From contig JBAIAA010000409.1 of NCBI GenBank assembly GCA_037893245.1, positions 2,409,001 to 2,473,000 on the forward strand: a DNA stretch of 64,000 nucleotides, in the 5' to 3' direction. The notes below the pieces were generated by a model. That model was not told the origin of the DNA and searched no databases. It saw only the letters and a program-made list of their open reading frames with translations. Positions 9,407 to 63,594 of this stretch are shown in pieces. Position 1 is the first letter of the stretch, and each line of letters opens with the position of its first letter. The translations under genes and the position numbers were made by a program. The DNA is from Crossaster papposus. Taxonomy: Eukaryota > Echinodermata > Asteroidea > Velatida > Solasteridae.

Positions 9407-10668
9407 CTACTTTGAACCAACTCCTGAAAAGCTCTCATTACCATCACCTATAATCCTATCTGAACGTTTCACAATACGTTCCAGTTTCTTCCGGTTGTTA
9501 ACAGTGAGCGAGTTAAACCAAGCAATAGAACAGAAAGTTAACAATGATTGAATTGTGCTCTGGTAGAACAATTTTAAGATCCGGGTGTTTACATTAAAAG
9601 ATTTCAGTTTCCTCACAAAGTGTAACCGCTGATTAGCTTTTTTGTAAACTGTTGTGGTGTTAGAATTCCAGTTTAACTGATTGTCAACCACAGTTCCTAG
9701 GTACTTGTACTCATTAACTACTTCAACAGGCACATCATTAATTTGTACAGATTGCACAGTTTGTTTGTTCTTTTGAAAATTAAAAACCATTTCTTTAGTT
9801 TTTTGCACATTGATGATCAAATGATTTTCAGCACACCAATTAACAAACCGATCAATGTTACTTCTATAATCCAATTCATCTTTGTCAGTTATCAATCCTG
9901 TCAACACAGTATCGTCAGCGTATTTAACCAAAACACACGAGTCACTGTGTACATTAAAATCACTTGTAAATAAGGAAAACAAAAGAGGCGACAAAACACA
10001 ACCCTGGGGAACTCCAGTACTTAAATATGTAATATCGGAGCTAACACCAGTTACTCTGACCCTCTGTGGTCGTTGGGGTAAGAAGTTATTAATCCAAAGA
10101 GAGAGGTGTGGGTTAACATTCAAATAATTCAATTTGTGCAAAAGAACCGAAGGTCTAATGGTATTAAGCGCAGAGGAGAAATCAATAAATAAAGCACGAA
10201 CGTAGGACTTACAGGTATCAAGATGACTATAAATATTATGCAACAAAGTTATTATTGCGTCATCTACACAACGATGAGCACGATACGCAAACTGAAATGG
10301 GTCCGTTGCCTCTCGTGTTTCATCAAGCAAGAAATCTTTAACAATTCTCTCAAAGCATTTCATCACAATAGATGTGAGGACAACTGGCCTGTAATCATTG
10401 AGAACAGCTGGCTTGGGTTTTTTGGGGATTGGACTAATTATAGAGGATTTCCATATTTTAGGAATATGTGAGTGTCCAAAGACCATTGAAATAACCGCTG
10501 AAAGATACCTGCAAGTTCTTTGTAACATGCTTTCAGAGTCCTACCAGATATCCCATCTGGGCCGACAGCTTTGTTTGTTTTAATAGATTTAAATACCTTT
10601 TCGACTTGAAAGGTTGTAAGAACAATGTTATCATTTATACTTCCTTGGGAGGCTAAATCTGTACACAT
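9407..10668 (-). pseudogene. LINE reverse transcriptase domain
   Basis: This is the RNA-dependent DNA polymerase of the LINE. Two overlapping frames (10438-10668 and 9407-10528) join by a frameshift near 10500. The first begins the domain (NKAVGPDGISGRTLK). The second, 373 residues, shows PIPKK, NDYRPVVLTS (44-53), FAYRAHRCVDDAI (80-92), the metal-binding FIDFSSALN (D116), the VPQGCVLSPLLF turn (173-184) and the catalytic YADD box (203-206), followed by the thumb region with ANQRLHFVRKL. It is intact except for the frameshift and its C-terminal end. Confidence 0.9.
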
Positions 10669-15656: not shown

Positions 15657-16591
15657 GTACAGGGAGGTTACTGAAAAGAGTTCAACCATGGAGGAATCGT
15701 ATTCCTCCATGGTGCAACTTGGCTTTTCTCGAAATGTTTCGCATCCGACATTCATAGGCTACTGTACTGTAATGTAACCTTTGCATTTAAATTCCCTTTT
15801 GCAGGAAAAATCATCAAAAGCACCGAACGTTTCAGTTTGCATTGCATAATCCGATGGAATCCAATTAGAAATTGATGAAAATATTTATATTTTTTATTTT
15901 GTATTGATTGGATTTTTTTATTATTTATTTTTTTTAACATGTTTTTTGTTTAGATATCCTTAACTTTCTATTGATTGTAAATTTGTATCTATTTTTCTTT
16001 TTGTGCCCTTCAAACTAATAAATAAAATGAAATGAAAAAAAGTTTATGAACCTGAATTATGCAAAGTCAAATCTAATTTCAGTTGGGACTGCAAATGTAA
16101 ATGGTGACAACAAATTCAATTCCACTGAAGGGGGCCTTCTCCAACTACTGAAAAGACAGGCAGCAATAATAATAATCTTTAAAAAGGAGATTTTATTTCA
16201 GGAGATTTTATTTAGTTAAAAAAGGGGATTTATTTAAGTGGGAACACTAGATACAACCCCCGCCCCCCCCCCCCAAAAAAAAAAAAAAAAAAAAAGAACA
16301 AAAACTTCATTTAATGAATGACCATATTTGACAGTCACGAATGGTCTCGAGCATCCTTTTAAATCAGGGCACCTGGTGTGCTGTTATGTTGTAACAAAAT
16401 TGACATTGTTTAGCAATTTCCAAAGATGGTCAGCCAACGTACGACGTGCAAAGAAATTCTAAACCCCGGTTAAATCCGTTTACCCCCCCCCCCCAAAAAA
16501 AAAAGAGCTAATGTTGTATACTACCCTTAAAATAAAATGTGCCGTGAAATGAATAGTGTCCCATTAACCTTTCTGAATGTTCCTATTTCAG
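15657..16591 (+). other. Intron of the piggyBac gene
   Basis: GT at 15657 and AG at 16590-16591 bound a 935-bp gap that keeps the transposase frame. It contains the 25-bp P-like footprint at 15687, a 3'-end-like A-rich stretch near 16018-16045 and C/A homopolymer runs at 16258-16296 and 16484-16504. The frame without splicing hits a stop at 15775. Confidence 0.65.
15687..15711. mobile_element. P-like excision footprint, 25 bp
   Basis: The segment is CATGGAGGAAT, a CGT spacer, then ATTCCTCCATG. Direct 7-bp repeats flank it (GTTCAAC at 15680-15686 and GTGCAAC at 15712-15718, one mismatch). The ends equal the termini of the 2.7-kb element at 55633-58358. Confidence 0.75.
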
Positions 16592-54713: not shown

Positions 54714-55251
54714 GGTAGGATACATAATTTGCAGATATCGAAGAAAAAAATACTTACAAATTTATATTAAGAAATATCTTACTTATTTGAAAGTAAATAA
54801 TGATTGTAATTTGTAGGCATCCAGTAAAATGATTGCGCTAGATATCCTATAATTGTTCCGAAAAGTTGAATTTTATTAACAAAATAACAAAATTTATTAA
54901 CAAAATAACAAAATTTATTAACAAAATATACAATCGCCAGACGGTGATCGTTAAAAAAAACGTTGTTTATCTTGCTTTCCTCGGTCGGCATCCATGACTG
55001 TAAAACTTCGAACAGGTCAGTTAAATGATATTTACTATAAAATACAACCCCCCCCAAAAAAATCTACCCATTCATGTAGACCGAGTTACTGGCCTCTCGC
55101 TTTTTTAACATTTGGACATCATCTGGCGCTACTAGTAGTAGCGCCAGATGATGTTTAAATGTTAAAAAAGCGATAACTAGAGGCCAGTATTAACTCGGTC
55201 TACCATTCATGATAATTTAAGCAATTTCCAATGGTGTATCCTACCTTTAAC
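54714..55251. mobile_element. GGTAGGATAC-type MITE carrying a nested palindrome
   Basis: The ends are GAAGGTAGGATACATAATTT and TGGTGTATCCTACCTTTAAC. Inside is a tandem triplication of TTATTAACAAAATAACAAAA (54873-54928) and the nested palindrome at 55076-55203. It lies just upstream of the CCDC146 start exon. Confidence 0.8.
55076..55203. mobile_element. Near-perfect palindrome, 128 bp, with 7-bp flanks
   Basis: GTAGACCGAGTTACTGGCCT at the left is mirrored to CTCGGTCTAC at the right, with the centre ACTAGTAGT near 55133. CATTCAT lies on both sides. Other copies of the host MITE read straight through this point, so the empty site is known from the family. Confidence 0.88.
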
Positions 55252-55279
55252 CATGGAGGAATAAGAAGGCCCCTCCATG
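55252..55279. mobile_element. P-like excision footprint, 28 bp
   Basis: CATGGAGGAATAAGAAGG followed by CCCCTCCATG, between perfect 7-bp direct repeats CTTTAAC at 55245-55251 and 55280-55286. The first 18 bases equal the left terminus of the element at 55633. Confidence 0.8.
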
Positions 55280-55632
55280 CTTTAACCAACATCCGAGATA
55301 ATAAATGTATATATTTTTACGAACTCCCCTTTTAATTAATTTATACCAAATCTTTCTTTGTCAACATGCCTTTGTGGTTTTTTGGTTTTTTTGTAAGTTA
55401 CATACCTGCTTTTTTTTGTTTTTGTAAACATAAATAAATATATTGTATTATATATATACTGTATTTTTTTTATTAAAAAAACAAATGTAATTTAGTGTAA
55501 TATTTTATAATCAGCAAAAACATACCGGTATTGTATTTGTGCATGTTTATTTTTTTAACATAAAAAAACCCGAAGGCATTGACCAGCACTCGATCAGCAG
55601 ACGTGAGACGGTGATAGTGCATGCAGTGCAGT

Positions 55633-58358
55633 CATGGAGGAATAAGAAGGAATGGAGTTCGAACGGACCCTGCTTCAAACAATTAAGGTTGGCTGCCGTG
55701 GTCGTAAAACGGTCGTAAAAATAGCACCCACAAGAGCTTATCTGTCATCGAGCGCCCGCTGTCAAGGACGGGCTTTCCCGAATTCACGCTCACCGCGCGT
55801 GCGCAGTGCGATCTTCCTTGTTTCAAGATGGCGTCGCACCAGAAGGATGATTTCGTTTCGCGAAAATATATGAACCCTAGGCCTAGCGAACTTTCGTATA
55901 AAAGTTCCGATAGTTTTTGTGGGTTTATGAACGGTATCGGCGCGGCCTGGCTTATCAAAAAATACTGCCAATGTCATTACACTGGTGAGTTCATGCGGGG
56001 GAATGTTTTATTGAGCAACCATGGAGGAATAAGAAGGAATTGAACTAGTTTAAACAGGGACAAGAATTTGTTTCAGTTTTACTCCTCTTTTTGCACTTGC
56101 ACTTTGCAGTCGGCATTGGCATTGCAAAATGTGTAAACACGAAGTTTTGCGGAATCATTTGTGAATAGGCAAAGCAAAATAATTGCTAAAATCAAGATTG
56201 ATAACTATTAAATAAAGTAAGACAAAATAAAATATGTTGGTCAAGTGTATTTCTGCACATAACCCATTCTATTTCTGCTCATTTAAAATAATTTAATTTT
56301 TCAATTCCCCTCTTAAAAATATAACGTATAGCATTATCAGTACAGTAGTTCCAGCACTGAGATGGACCGTCCTTCAGTAAAGTTTTGCCAAGCACAAACA
56401 AAGCAAGTCCAGCAATTGCAAGGAAGCAGAAGCCAGAGAGTCGTGGCCGACCCATCAAAAAAATCGGCAAGAAACTCTTTTAAAGTAAATCACATTTCCG
56501 AGTACTCCTAAAACAGGCCAGTCTTAATCGGTAAAATTATATTCACTTTTTAAAAGTATGATTTTTGCATAATTCCAATACATGTAGTTTGATAACCCTA
56601 AACTTTGAAAATTTATAAGAATTTCAAGTAATAGTACAATATGTTCATTTGAATTACATGTTGGCTTTAAAAAAGGCTTTACAACGACAAGACTTCTTAT
56701 TCCTGTTTGATTCATTTCTCATTACAGCTGTTAACCCTAACTCCCTCACCATTGTTATTGAACAATACAATTCCTCCAAAATCCTCCAACTTCCTTTGTT
56801 GTGTAGGGAGTTAGGGTAAAACGACAACAACTAAAGTTCAAAAGGAAGGTTGCTGTGACAAATGCAACAACAGATGTGAAGACTGTCTTCAGCAGATGCC
56901 TCCTGAATTCATCAAGTTTTTACACAGAATTATAGATGCTATAATCGTGGAGGAATAAGAACGCATGTGGCTCGACGGTGACTTTTCATGCAACTCTGAT
57001 TCAGTTTTTATATACAGAAGATGATTCAAGTGCCAGCTGGATTTTTAACTGCTTTGTATACAATTTCAAATTTATAATAACACAAACTTTCCATGATTGT
57101 AGAATATTGAAAAACTTTCTATAAATGAAATTTTAATTACACACGTATAATTATGCGTTGTACAGGAATTTTTTTTGTTTATTACATTGTACACGGTACG
57201 AATGCACTTCCAAATGATTTCTGTCTTGTACAAAATGTTCAAGTTCACTTTGACTTTAAATAAATTAGTTTTACGTCTGTATATATAGTGAGTTTGTATC
57301 TTAAACTAAATTAATATCACCACGAACAGTCACAAAAAAGTTGTAGCACAGTTCGGTTGAAATTACATTTTTTGGTGCTAATGAACATTTCTTTATTTTG
57401 ATTAACCCATGAAAAACCATGACCCAACTCGATATATCCCTCGCCCCCTGTGCCCTTTGGAACCATCCTCAATCGATTCTGCAAATTCCTCCACCACGTA
57501 CATTTTGATTCATCCTTAATCCTCCAAAATGGTCGGTTATTTCTTGAATTTGTCCATGGATTCTGTAAAGATTAAAACAAAAAAATCACAATAATTTTTG
57601 AGAATGGAATTTCAGAGTGTTGAAAACATTTTTCTCTTTCATTTTTGAAACATTCTATGAAAAATATAACGGCAAAAGTATCCAAAAGACACCAAAATCT
57701 ACTTCTGAAAATAAATACAATGAATATTGTAGATGTCGTTCTGACCGTTCGCGGTCGTTTCCGCGAAAAAAATCGCTAAAAAACAACCAAACAAAATCCT
57801 CAAAAAAATTTGTGGTACAAACTGGTGAGTGAAGCCGAACACACGAACGGATAGAGAAAACCTTAACGAACGAAATCCTCGTGTTTTCAACCACTGCCGA
57901 CATCTGGAAAGCCCCTAAAATCATAAAAATATGAGACATGATTTTCAAAATTTATCACTATATTCTAGAGGTAACAACGAATGTATCTTACCAAAGAAAA
58001 GTCCGATTTTGATGAACCAAACACCAAAAAAAATCGCTTTTTGAGAGCAATTCGTTGAAGAAAATGGCGCATGAAGAATAACGACACAGGGTGACTGCGC
58101 ATGCGAAAACGTGTTCTATTCGTGTGTTCGTGTTTATTGACTCAAGTGACAACCAACGATTCATTCGGCTTCTGTGCAGCGAGTACCGGCAGCCATCTGT
58201 ATGCATCAAAGAACCTTATCGCGGTCGTAAAATCTGTCGCACAGCGGGAGTCCTCCATGCCTTTACCACTGGTCAGCCAGGGTCAGTAATTGGTCATTAA
58301 ATACCCTGCAGGGGGTTTGGCGGGCCGTTCGAACTCCATTCCTTCTTATTCCTCCATG
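55633..58358. mobile_element. P-superfamily-like non-autonomous element, 2.7 kb
   Basis: Perfect 34-bp terminal inverted repeats start CATGGAGGAATAAGAAGG, and GTGCAGT flanks both sides (55626-55632 and 58359-58365). The start resembles Drosophila P-element ends (CATGATGAAATAA), and P elements make 7-8 bp duplications. Degenerate copies of the end lie inside at 56020 and 56946. No THAP domain or P transposase frame was found. CpG-rich promoter-like DNA occurs near both ends (55730-55860 and 58080-58260), possibly captured host sequence. It sits between CCDC146 and RUVBL1. Confidence 0.8.
55828..55984 (+). CDS. Putative first exon inside the P-like element
   Basis: ATG in good context (CAAGATGGCG) opens 52 codons (MASHQKDDFVSRKYMNPRPS, then FCGFMNGIGAAWLIKKYCQC) and ends at a consensus donor, ACTG/GTGAGT. 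CpG-rich, promoter-like DNA lies upstream. I do not recognise the protein and no second exon was found. It may be a captured host exon or a real host first exon around which the element ends happen to lie. Confidence 0.4.
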
Positions 58359-60430
<2,072 letters not shown>

Positions 60431-61064
60431 ATGGCCGGTGTTCACGAGAATATCGCAGAAGACCGGACTTCAGCCGATAATTCTTCGTCAATCAAGGTAT
60501 GTGACATATGGTTTTTCGGTATAAAAAACTTAATGATATACTTTAAAATCAAGTATTTAAAATATTTCATTTGAGATAAACATGAAAATAAAACTTTTAA
60601 TAATTACATTTACATAATAAGTTTTATAATTTAGTACATCAATCAAAGGCTTTAAAAAATAGTCCCCGTATGAAAATGGAAGCGCCCAAGACCTCGTACG
60701 CTCGATTACCAGAGGTGGGTCATTCCATTATGACAAATAGGGTGAGGTAAATGATAAATTAAATACAGTTTAATTAATTAGACTTATTTTGAGTTTTTTC
60801 AACAAGCAACAAATACAGTTTTATTCAAATCGGGGGGAGGGGGTGTTTAGTAAAATGTTTTTATTATTTTATTATTTTTTAATTTTTTTTAAATATTTTT
60901 TTTGATCTTTTGTAAATAAAATTTGCAATTTCTTTTTGAAGTTCAAACATTTTCATTCTTTATGTTGATTGCTTTCAATTCAGATTACAACTCCAGCAGG
61001 GGATCTTGCCACACTGACACGTCATTACCAATGCGGTTCATCGTGTCAAACCGGAAAGAAATGA
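60431..61064 (+). CDS. Weak two-exon candidate gene
   Basis: Exon 60431-60496 (MAGVHENIAEDRTSADNSSS, IK) ends at AAG/GTATGT. An acceptor TCAATTCAG at 60983 could join in phase to 60984-61064 (ITTPAGDLATLTRHYQCGSS to the stop TGA). The result has only 48 residues and no known family. The start context (CAAAATGGCC) and CpG-rich upstream DNA are the main support. It would lie inside RUVBL1 intron 1. Confidence 0.25.
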
Positions 61065-61424
61065 TGTCCCAAGTCTACAATACCTATTTCCCACTGTCGT
61101 CGATCAGAACCAGCTTCAAATAGGCTAGCAAATCCACAGCAAAAAAATGCAGCCGAGTATGAATGCTTGTTCGACAAGGAGGAAGTGCCAACTTTCCAAA
61201 CAATATCAGAAGTTATAACAGATGTTGCAGTTGGAGACATGTTTCTGTACATGTCATAAATCTTATTCTGTGCCATGTTATGAAAAGATCTAAGGCTGCC
61301 CCACTTGATTAAGTCCACAGACTTCCATGTTGATATCTGAAAAACAAAAGAGAATAACACTATTTAATTAAGGTGTTCACAACACAATACTCTCCTAAAT
61401 CATACTCCATTTGAAATTCAAATG

Positions 61425-61560
61425 AAATTTTTGTGGCATTTGGCGGCCATTTTGAGATTTTTGTGGCAATTTTGAGATTTTTGCGGCCATTTTGAAAATT
61501 GTGCCGCCATTTTGAAAATTTGGTGGTCATTTTGAAATTTTGGAGCCCATTTAGGATATA
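61425..61560. repeat. Degenerate minisatellite of about 20 bp
   Basis: About seven units of the type GCGGCCATTTTGAGATTTTT. The minus strand reads F/K/W-rich repeats (FQNGRKNLKIATKISKWPP), a repeat artefact. Confidence 0.75.
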
Positions 61561-63560
61561 ATTTACGGTATCCTGTTTTATTTGTTTGAAACTAAATAGA
61601 TAATACATTTATGTTGAATACTTACACTACTGTATCATATACGCAACAAGCCAATCTCCAAACCGTTGACGTTGGTGTACAAATGCGTTTAAATTATATA
61701 AGATGGCAGCCATTTTGAATATTTAATTAGGCATGTGTTACGAAGTCAAACGTGCACCTAGACATCGACACATTCCACTCCAAATTCCAATCCTTCAAAC
61801 TGTTTTAAAGATAATGTAAGTTGATCAGAAGTGTGTTAATAATAATCTTGCATAGTACGTAATGTGTGCATGGTCACAATATTTTGCCTCATTTTGTCCA
61901 TCAAAACAGGCCAAATAGACGAATAAAAAATTACGATAACTTTAGTTCCGAGAACCCTATGACCATGAGAGACCCCTCATTTTAAACCTCAATACAAGCT
62001 CTTTAGAATGAGACCACAATCAATGTGATCAGAGCAACTTTAAATTTTCATGATTCTGCCTACCAATGTATGTACTTGACATAAGTTCTACAACAAAAGA
62101 TACAGGTTTTATGGCCAAAAAAACTTGAGGCTTCCAAAATCCATTGCTATGGTTTACGAAAAACGCGCGCAGTACGCACTGAATACAAGTCAGTCAGTGT
62201 CGTTTTTGTATTCTTCACGGCCAGGGCTAGTGAAGTGAAGGAACGCACACGCGCCCATGTTGGCGAGGCTGGGGACAACTCGCCTCGATACATCTCGACC
62301 GGTGGGACAACTCGTGAACGTATGCAAGGAACGTCTCGCCATCGGCCTCCTGTATGCGATGTGTTCCTTATCGTGCCACTGGCCTAAACGTCCGTCGATG
62401 TCAGTTTTTATAATAATCGATATATAGGAAATTCAATATCGAGTATACTCGATATATCGATTATTTTCCGTGTGCAAGATGAAGCCTAAAAACAGCGCTC
62501 AATATACTGAAGACCGACAGTTTAATAGGGTTGCATATATACTTCCTACCGGTTTTCGGCTTGATCCTCCGCGCATGTTGTCGGTCCGAACAATATCAAA
62601 TTGCGCCAGCCCGCGTGTTGTTTAACGGCGGTTAACCTGTAAAAACCCTCTCTATCTATGGGTCTCCGCCCTACGGGCGTCGTGAGACCCATAGTTCTAC
62701 GGGTAATGACTGTATACGTCATAGTCGAGTTGTCTCGTGGTGGAGGGTGGGGGGGGGGGGGTGGAAAGAACCGAGTGCGAACGACCGTCTGTACCTCATT
62801 CATTAAACAAATTGTGCATAAGGGAAATGGGGGAAACAAATATCTGTCTTAAAGTCTTGTGTTTTTTTGGTAGCAACAGAGCATTAGGTAAATACAAACT
62901 CGATTGTGGTATTGTGCATGCCTTGTGAGGTTTCAACCAATAAGTGTAAAGCGACCAGATTTTACGGGCATCTAAATTACATGTGACATCGGAAAAGTGT
63001 TTAAAACTGGTTCGATGTTTTTATCATCCGTTTAAAACCGGCCACATGACAGGCTTTTGACGAATAGGAATAGGTAAACTTCTAAAATTTAAGAATGTTT
63101 TATTAATTATACATCTATTCTCGCTGCTGTCTACGAAGGGAATGAGATAACTCCCATGGCCTAAGGCGGCTTACCGAAATTGACTAGCCGTGATTCTGCA
63201 GTCCGTTTGCGTTCTGGCCGATAAGTCTGCAGTTGCTAAGGGAGGCGGGAATCTGCAGACTGGACGGGTGTGTGCGTTCAAGCGCTGCGAGTTTAATGAG
63301 CTCCACCAGCCATGCGCTATTGTCATCTCAACAATGATATAATGAATAAACATGAGTCACTAGAGACCTCATGAATCCGGACGGCCGGTACGCGGAAAGA
63401 CGTGCTATTTAAAAAATAGCACTTGAATTAGAATACGGTCGTTTTCCCAGCTATACTTCTGGATCGCAAAAGAATGTTCCGGCTGCTTTAGGCTAGACCA
63501 ATTTTAGAAAATCAAGTATTAAAAAAAGGTTTAGGATTCCTACCTACATATAGAGTGTTG
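61561..63560. other. Gene-free right part
   Basis: There is no supported exon. Visible structures are AT-rich ATCGATATATCGAT words near 62415-62465 (also at 49195-49262), a hairpin at 62656-62694 (CTATGGGTCT to AGACCCATAG), a G run at 62748-62761, and at 62990-63090 a relative of 32755-32845 (ACCGGCCACRTGAC words). Confidence 0.4.
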
Positions 63561-63567
63561 GACATAC

Positions 63568-63587
63568 CATGGAGGAATTCCTCCATG
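63568..63587. mobile_element. P-like excision footprint, 20 bp perfect palindrome
   Basis: CATGGAGGAATTCCTCCATG lies between perfect 7-bp direct repeats GACATAC (63561-63567 and 63588-63594). It consists only of the two terminal ends of the 55633-58358 element type. Confidence 0.82.
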
Positions 63588-63594
63588 GACATAC

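Follow-up and report, generated by a model that had tools for sequence, protein, structure and literature searches.

The window, i.e., the whole 64,000-nucleotide stretch of Crossaster papposus DNA analysed here, very probably harbours, from a P-superfamily transposon with 7-bp targets, a single non-autonomous element and three footprints left by excision. The footprint reading is supported because the flanking repeats are of 7 bp and of no other length, because the end sequence kept by the relics stops at an abrupt limit, because the junctions, like those sequenced for Drosophila P, are blunt, have 1–2 bases in common or contain short inserts, because empty-length copies of one site (site A) exist, because some element tips are partly duplicated, and because a related element carries a P-superfamily catalytic domain. 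On these grounds, the proposal of an earlier sequence-only reading that these are P-type footprints outside insects is supported. Scars of cut-and-paste transposons are usually too short for recognition; here, long tails make them legible, so that excision, and not only insertion, can be counted across an animal-sized genome. Such scars also give the cutting geometry without biochemistry, together with hundreds of natural break-repair junctions to set beside those of flies, and empty, scarred, and differently scarred versions of one site make its history testable.

The sequence-only reading had placed an element and three tiny palindromes in this DNA; all four were found, at the right coordinates, and are given below with the features that accompany them (unstranded unless a strand is indicated).

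15680–15686: target repeat GTTCAAC, left of A
15687–15711: putative footprint A, 25 bp, within a repeat adjoining a piggyBac-type transposase ORF
15712–15718: target repeat GTGCAAC, right of A, 6/7 match
55245–55251: target repeat CTTTAAC, left of B
55252–55279: putative 28-bp footprint B, in which 18 nt from one end and 8 nt from the other enclose 2 unassigned bp
55280–55286: target repeat CTTTAAC, right of B
55626–55632: left 7-bp target repeat GTGCAGT of the element
55633–58358: non-autonomous P-like element, 2726 bp, with inverted ends, related copies elsewhere and no transposase match
55633–55669, plus strand: left terminal inverted repeat, from end-to-end comparison
56020–56041, plus strand: internal terminus copy (CATGGAGGAATAAGAAGGAATT), 387 bp inward of the left end
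56946–56960, plus strand: degenerate internal terminus copy (CGTGGAGGAATAAGA)
58249–58259, minus strand: degenerate internal copy near the right end (CATGGAGGACT); the related C850 element has one too
58322–58358, minus strand: right terminal inverted repeat, from end-to-end comparison
58359–58365: right 7-bp target repeat GTGCAGT of the element
63561–63567: target repeat GACATAC, left of C
63568–63587: putative footprint C, 20 bp, 11 nt per end, AT common to both
63588–63594: target repeat GACATAC, right of C

The inverted ends of the window element, 37 bp in length, are 97% complementary, and its left and right target repeats are identical (GTGCAGT/GTGCAGT). Flanking 7-bp direct repeats had been claimed for all four features, and they are indeed exact at the element, B and C and match at 6/7 positions at A. 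The shared terminus that had also been proposed is present in the element, A and C, while the right half of footprint B has only CCTCCATG, without the full 11-mer. When the window was searched with the bare 11-mer, allowing up to two mismatches, 26 matches were obtained for 16.84 expected, a number reached by 2 of 100 shuffles; this enrichment is mild, and the strong evidence is the paired arrangement across the genome.

Across the 1,023,315,904 bases (1841 contigs) searched, the pattern CATGGAGGAAT-N0-25-ATTCCTCCATG occurs at 1204 sites and its reversed control at 0; these sites do not amount to 1204 events, as the count includes the units of a tandem array on contig C532 and duplicated loci. 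Flanks were compared at 49 sites, namely 46 of 50 listed paired sites and the three window footprints. Exact 7-bp flanking repeats were found at 33 of them, against 0.5% of 2352 cross-paired flanks, and repeats with one mismatch at 5 further sites (38/49 at one mismatch or fewer), against 3.2% of the same cross-pairings (3.7% cumulative). The 49 include three pairs of duplicated loci; counting each pair once leaves 31/46 exact. At other lengths, exact repeats are found at one site each for 5, 6 and 8 bp and at none for 9 or 10 bp. The enrichment of 7-bp repeats around such palindromes, on which the sequence-only reading had staked its interpretation, thus holds genome-wide and leaves the footprint reading unrefuted. 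Sixteen of the 49 sites are without an exact 7-bp repeat, and the 11 that differ at two or more positions are unexplained or damaged.

The consensus target of the 38 distinct sites, both orientations pooled, is palindromic and close to TTGGTTNAACCAA, with G at 0.61 and T at 0.84 in its first two positions; 31/38 targets start with GT or end with AC, and 8/38 do both. A repeat of 7 or 8 bp with a palindromic GT...AC preference is a trait of the P superfamily, in which Galileo, according to the relevant passages of PMC4168063, uses 7-bp targets GTANTAC or GTATTAC within a longer palindrome, with a few of 8 bp. The target palindrome found here is similar, and the canonical 8-bp repeat of the Drosophila type is exact at 1/49 sites; the inverted ends, at 37 bp, set our element apart from Galileo.

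How much of the end is kept is best seen in the AAGAAG-type subfamily. Its end is present with at least 17 nt kept in 479 strand matches genome-wide (241 + 238) and with at least 22 nt kept, at equal maximum span, in a single one, the latter search having used the GAATG continuation only, which GAATT ends would escape. We decoded 75 places, i.e., 80 distinct listed places minus one segmental duplicate and four without readable letters, and all 75 keep 21 nt or fewer, with the window element end as reference. The longest kept end measures 17 nt in 10 places, 18 nt in 29, 19 nt in 8, 20 nt in 6 and 21 nt in 22. Allowing for bases common to both sides of the join, the minimum kept by the longer end in the 62 insert-free joins is 17 nt in 8, 18 nt in 27, 19 nt in 19 and 20 nt in 8. 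Read from these lengths, the cut would lie 20 nt or more inside the end in part of the events but almost never farther in than 21 nt, which suggests a long staggered cut of about 20–21 nt within the inverted end. The commonest minimum is 18, not 20–21, and a shorter stagger followed by the addition of bases could also account for this length.

Footprint lengths in this set range from 28 to 43 bp, and the joins comprise 37 blunt ones, 25 sharing 1–2 bp, 5 with 1–3 extra bp and 8 with 4 or more. In Drosophila, P footprints likewise hold both target copies and parts of both ends, joined bluntly, at 1–3 shared bases or with inserts, in the account given in PMC2895639. The same source gives 58% short classes, 29% homologies of 5–10 bp and 13% inserts of more than 3 bp for 68 fly P junctions, proportions that are not directly comparable with ours, the long-homology products being invisible to the search pattern that we used.

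These joins also bear on the possibility, raised in the sequence-only reading, that the 20–40-bp palindromes are ultra-short MITEs that transpose themselves and duplicate 7 bp. The palindromes are numerous, each with its own 7-bp repeat, and one 30-bp form recurs at 17/75 decoded places, as might be expected of mobile copies. Yet this recurrent join is accounted for by the AT common to positions 20–21 and 10–11 of the two ends, and the 75 places display many combinations of kept lengths, with inserts in 13, instead of one homogeneous mobile sequence; mobile copies should also keep more of the end, whereas the kept part, as measured, never exceeds 21 nt. Several lengths at site A would not result from a single MITE insertion, and the P-MITEs known from Anopheles gambiae measure 205–2450 bp in the parts of PMC1562414 that describe them. 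With junctions that vary, a bounded end and a site of several lengths, we judge the MITE explanation very unlikely.

A second explanation regards the relics as elements with internal deletions, produced when gap repair was aborted after excision. In flies, the break left by an excised P element is often mended by incomplete synthesis (passages of PMC2895639), and a few longer composites are present in our data. Gap repair should, however, leave variable longer stretches, and 26–55-bp gaps between the 11-mers were found at 93 sites against 1204 for 0–25 bp, 29 of the 50 listed places with the longer gap being a single tandem array. The abrupt limit, with only one strand match keeping 22 nt or more, also counts against it, and we hold this explanation to be very unlikely.

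Returning to footprints left by excision, site A provides several versions of one locus. The repeat that contains footprint A lies upstream of the piggyBac-type transposase ORF (PF13843, E = 8.6e-78) and has at least 64 genome matches (best 40 of 292 candidates scored). Among 49 copies with exact anchors on both sides, compared by length alone and not by letters, the site measures 24 bp in 36, the length of an empty site with a single 7-bp target; the 13 longer copies measure 56 bp in 10, including the window, and 31, 41 and 67 bp in one each. Palindromic self-matches of 47–59 bp among the copies of this repeat indicate several footprint lengths. These observations fit an insertion in one repeat lineage followed by more than one excision, the alternative being mutation of a single footprint.

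The tandem array mentioned above (C532:693063–695015), which makes up the 29 listed long-gap places, has a 40-bp step consisting of a 33-bp footprint and the 7 bp ATGATAC, one target copy. Judging from this unit, the minisatellite probably grew from a footprint whose flanking direct repeats would have seeded unequal exchange.

Elements that end in the same terminus do exist elsewhere in the genome, as the sequence-only reading required. The window element used as a query has at least 132 genome matches (best 40 of 831 candidates scored), and 26 exact copies of its 27-nt end are spread over 15 loci, with both ends present at 11. All eight elements that were read with both ends are flanked by exact 7-bp repeats (8/8, where L029 and L030 represent a single duplicated locus); five other end pairings were left out, since what they join to a terminus is an internal repeat or footprint B, not an element end. 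Intact ends are few next to the relics: the AAGAAG-type subfamily alone has roughly 380 relics, a figure extrapolated by applying the ratio of 80 places per 100 listed rows to the 479 strand matches, against the 26 intact ends at 15 loci.

The tip is partly duplicated at 7/24 listed element ends, or 6/23 with the duplicated L029/L030 locus counted once (loci L029, L030, L027, L032, L033 and L041); in one example, after 19 nt of the end, the end sequence resumes at position 7. Such tips may have been formed by a staggered cut at one end, after which this end was joined back to the flank that it came from, both tails being kept. End types vary as well: some elements continue with GAATT, not GAATG (L033), and AAGAGCAG and AAACTAG are further variants. 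The 19-mer CATGGAGGAATAAGAGCAG occurs 360 + 394 times in the genome; six stretches carrying it were read (L116–L121), of which three run into a right half-end no more than 12 nt further on, in one case with a mismatch, and two of the remaining ones are identical copies that keep one end only.

A transposase can be tied to these ends at one locus. C850 is 90–92% identical to the right end of the window element over about 650 bp, and this end sequence is followed by three ORFs, the first of an N-terminal zinc type, the second coiled-coil-like and the third of the RNase H type; by this comparison, the right end of the window element corresponds to the 5' side of the gene. The RNase H ORF matches the TNP-like RNase H domain (PF21787, E = 1.2e-23) and the Drosophila P transposase 6p5a (E = 2.4e-6); this P-superfamily catalytic domain belongs to the related element, the window element itself having no such match. 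The match to the GTP-binding insertion domain (PF21788, E = 0.039) is below the curated cut-off. The end that was read in the C850 copy is without its first 16–17 nt, and a perfect 27-nt end lies at C850 41365–41391, on the opposite strand and facing the gene, 3.5 kb beyond the stretch read. No C850 transposase piece matches the window or the 20 element loci L025–L044 (tblastn, E ≤ 1e-3); it is on this basis that we call the window element non-autonomous.

The N-terminal pieces of C850 and of its relative C525 gave no match to the THAP domain at E ≤ 10. Two P-type transposases (L115:1272–1571 and L122:629–901) have an N-terminal zinc-type domain in common, with 46% identity. One of these two members matches zf-AD (E = 7.8e-4), which is absent from the matches listed for the longer C850 piece, and a PDB search with a single N-terminal protein gave no useful match. 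A RAG1-like origin of this domain, as in N-RAG-TP, was considered and was not significant: the RAG1 importin-binding family (Pfam RAG1_imp_bd) is matched by both members below the cut-off, with a best E of 0.15, and a PDB RAG1 chain at E = 2.3. Text that bears on the RAG1-like idea is found in PMC8355894.

Among the relatives of the C850 transposase are some whose open frames span about 650 codons, and the closest is 69% identical; for the C525 relative, the terminus was not found in 1.9 kb around the gene. Profile searches of the genome gave 71 matches for PF12017 and 131 for PF21787, and at 50 P-transposase loci (20 PF12017 and 30 PF21787, some overlapping), no terminus was found within about 1.5 kb on each side, the sole match, in L047, being poor and chance-like. 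Within that distance of these 50 loci, the abundant THAP/P families are not supported as the transposase source. The sequence-only reading had called for a P transposase with the same ends: C850 provides a related end and a catalytic domain, and the 50 other loci have no such terminus nearby. Several P-type transposase families have copies that are 97–100% identical (L007, L009, L010, L014–L024, L045–L054), which suggests recent activity in this genome.

That a single locus ties these ends to a P-type transposase while 50 others are without them nearby, together with target repeats of 7 bp and not 8, would suit a transposon of another superfamily with a similarly long stagger, whose ends were simply captured by the P-type element on C850. 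Against such a capture, the match with C850 extends beyond the tip, across 600 bp of end sequence, the terminus resembles that of Drosophila P (11/17), and the 7-bp GTNNNAC-like target resembles GTANTAC of Galileo (PMC4168063, relevant passages); we regard a capture as unlikely.

Under the P-superfamily reading, the element would insert at a palindromic site close to TTGGTTNAACCAA, duplicating 7 bp. On excision, one of the two strand cuts made by the transposase would fall at the element border and its partner about 20–21 nt within the inverted end, so that each flank would retain its target copy and a 3' tail of terminal sequence; these tails would then be joined by the host bluntly, at 1–2 shared bases or with short inserts, which would produce palindromes of 20–40 bp. 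The exact stagger and the repair route are those that the relics suggest. The cuts were presumably made by the lineage of the C850 catalytic domain, and relics would outnumber intact elements because excision outran insertion. It is a real possibility, falling just short of probable, that we are dealing with a P-superfamily lineage that has largely erased itself by excision, one that cuts with a two-turn (20–21-nt) stagger, uses 7-bp targets and has a zinc N-terminus that is not of the THAP type and perhaps resembles zf-AD or RAG1. If so, germline break repair has left a natural record in these relics, one of which grew into a 40-bp minisatellite.

The geometry of Drosophila P, which the sequence-only reading had invoked, is retained insofar as both targets and part of each end are kept. 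It differs in its dimensions, with 7 bp and a limit near 20–21 nt here against the 8-bp duplication and 17-nt tails described in the sections of PMC7776569 that deal with them, and in the C850 copy being without a recognisable THAP domain. The end found here begins with CATG and matches the 17-nt P tail, as given in part of PMC2895639, at 11/17 positions (chance 0.0018). Outside insects, the zebrafish P-type Pdre2/THAP9 carries subterminal repeats some 400 bp inward (PMC10983969 and PMC7776569, relevant passages), which recalls the internal terminus copy of the window element, 387 bp from its left end; Pdre2/THAP9 differs by its 13-bp ends and 8-bp repeats, and the corresponding passages of these two papers contain no genome-wide footprint record. 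The P-MITEs of Anopheles gambiae are, like our element, non-autonomous P derivatives; they have 8-bp repeats in the portions of PMC1562414 concerned, the main text of which does not contain the word footprint. No genome-wide catalogue of natural P-type footprints was found among the open-licence papers searched. What is new here is the numbers, the geometry of 7 bp and about 20 nt, and, in the linked transposase, an N-terminus that is not of the THAP type.

Footprint B adjoins a near-perfect hairpin (window 55097–55173) made of two 38-nt arms and a 1-nt spacer. Its flank (window 55190–55251) resembles, by eye and in reverse complement, L122:265–310 and an element flank in L039, and would represent another repeat family. 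Elsewhere in the window, a reverse transcriptase ORF with an ALKBH8_N-type tail lies at 9410–10540 on the minus strand.
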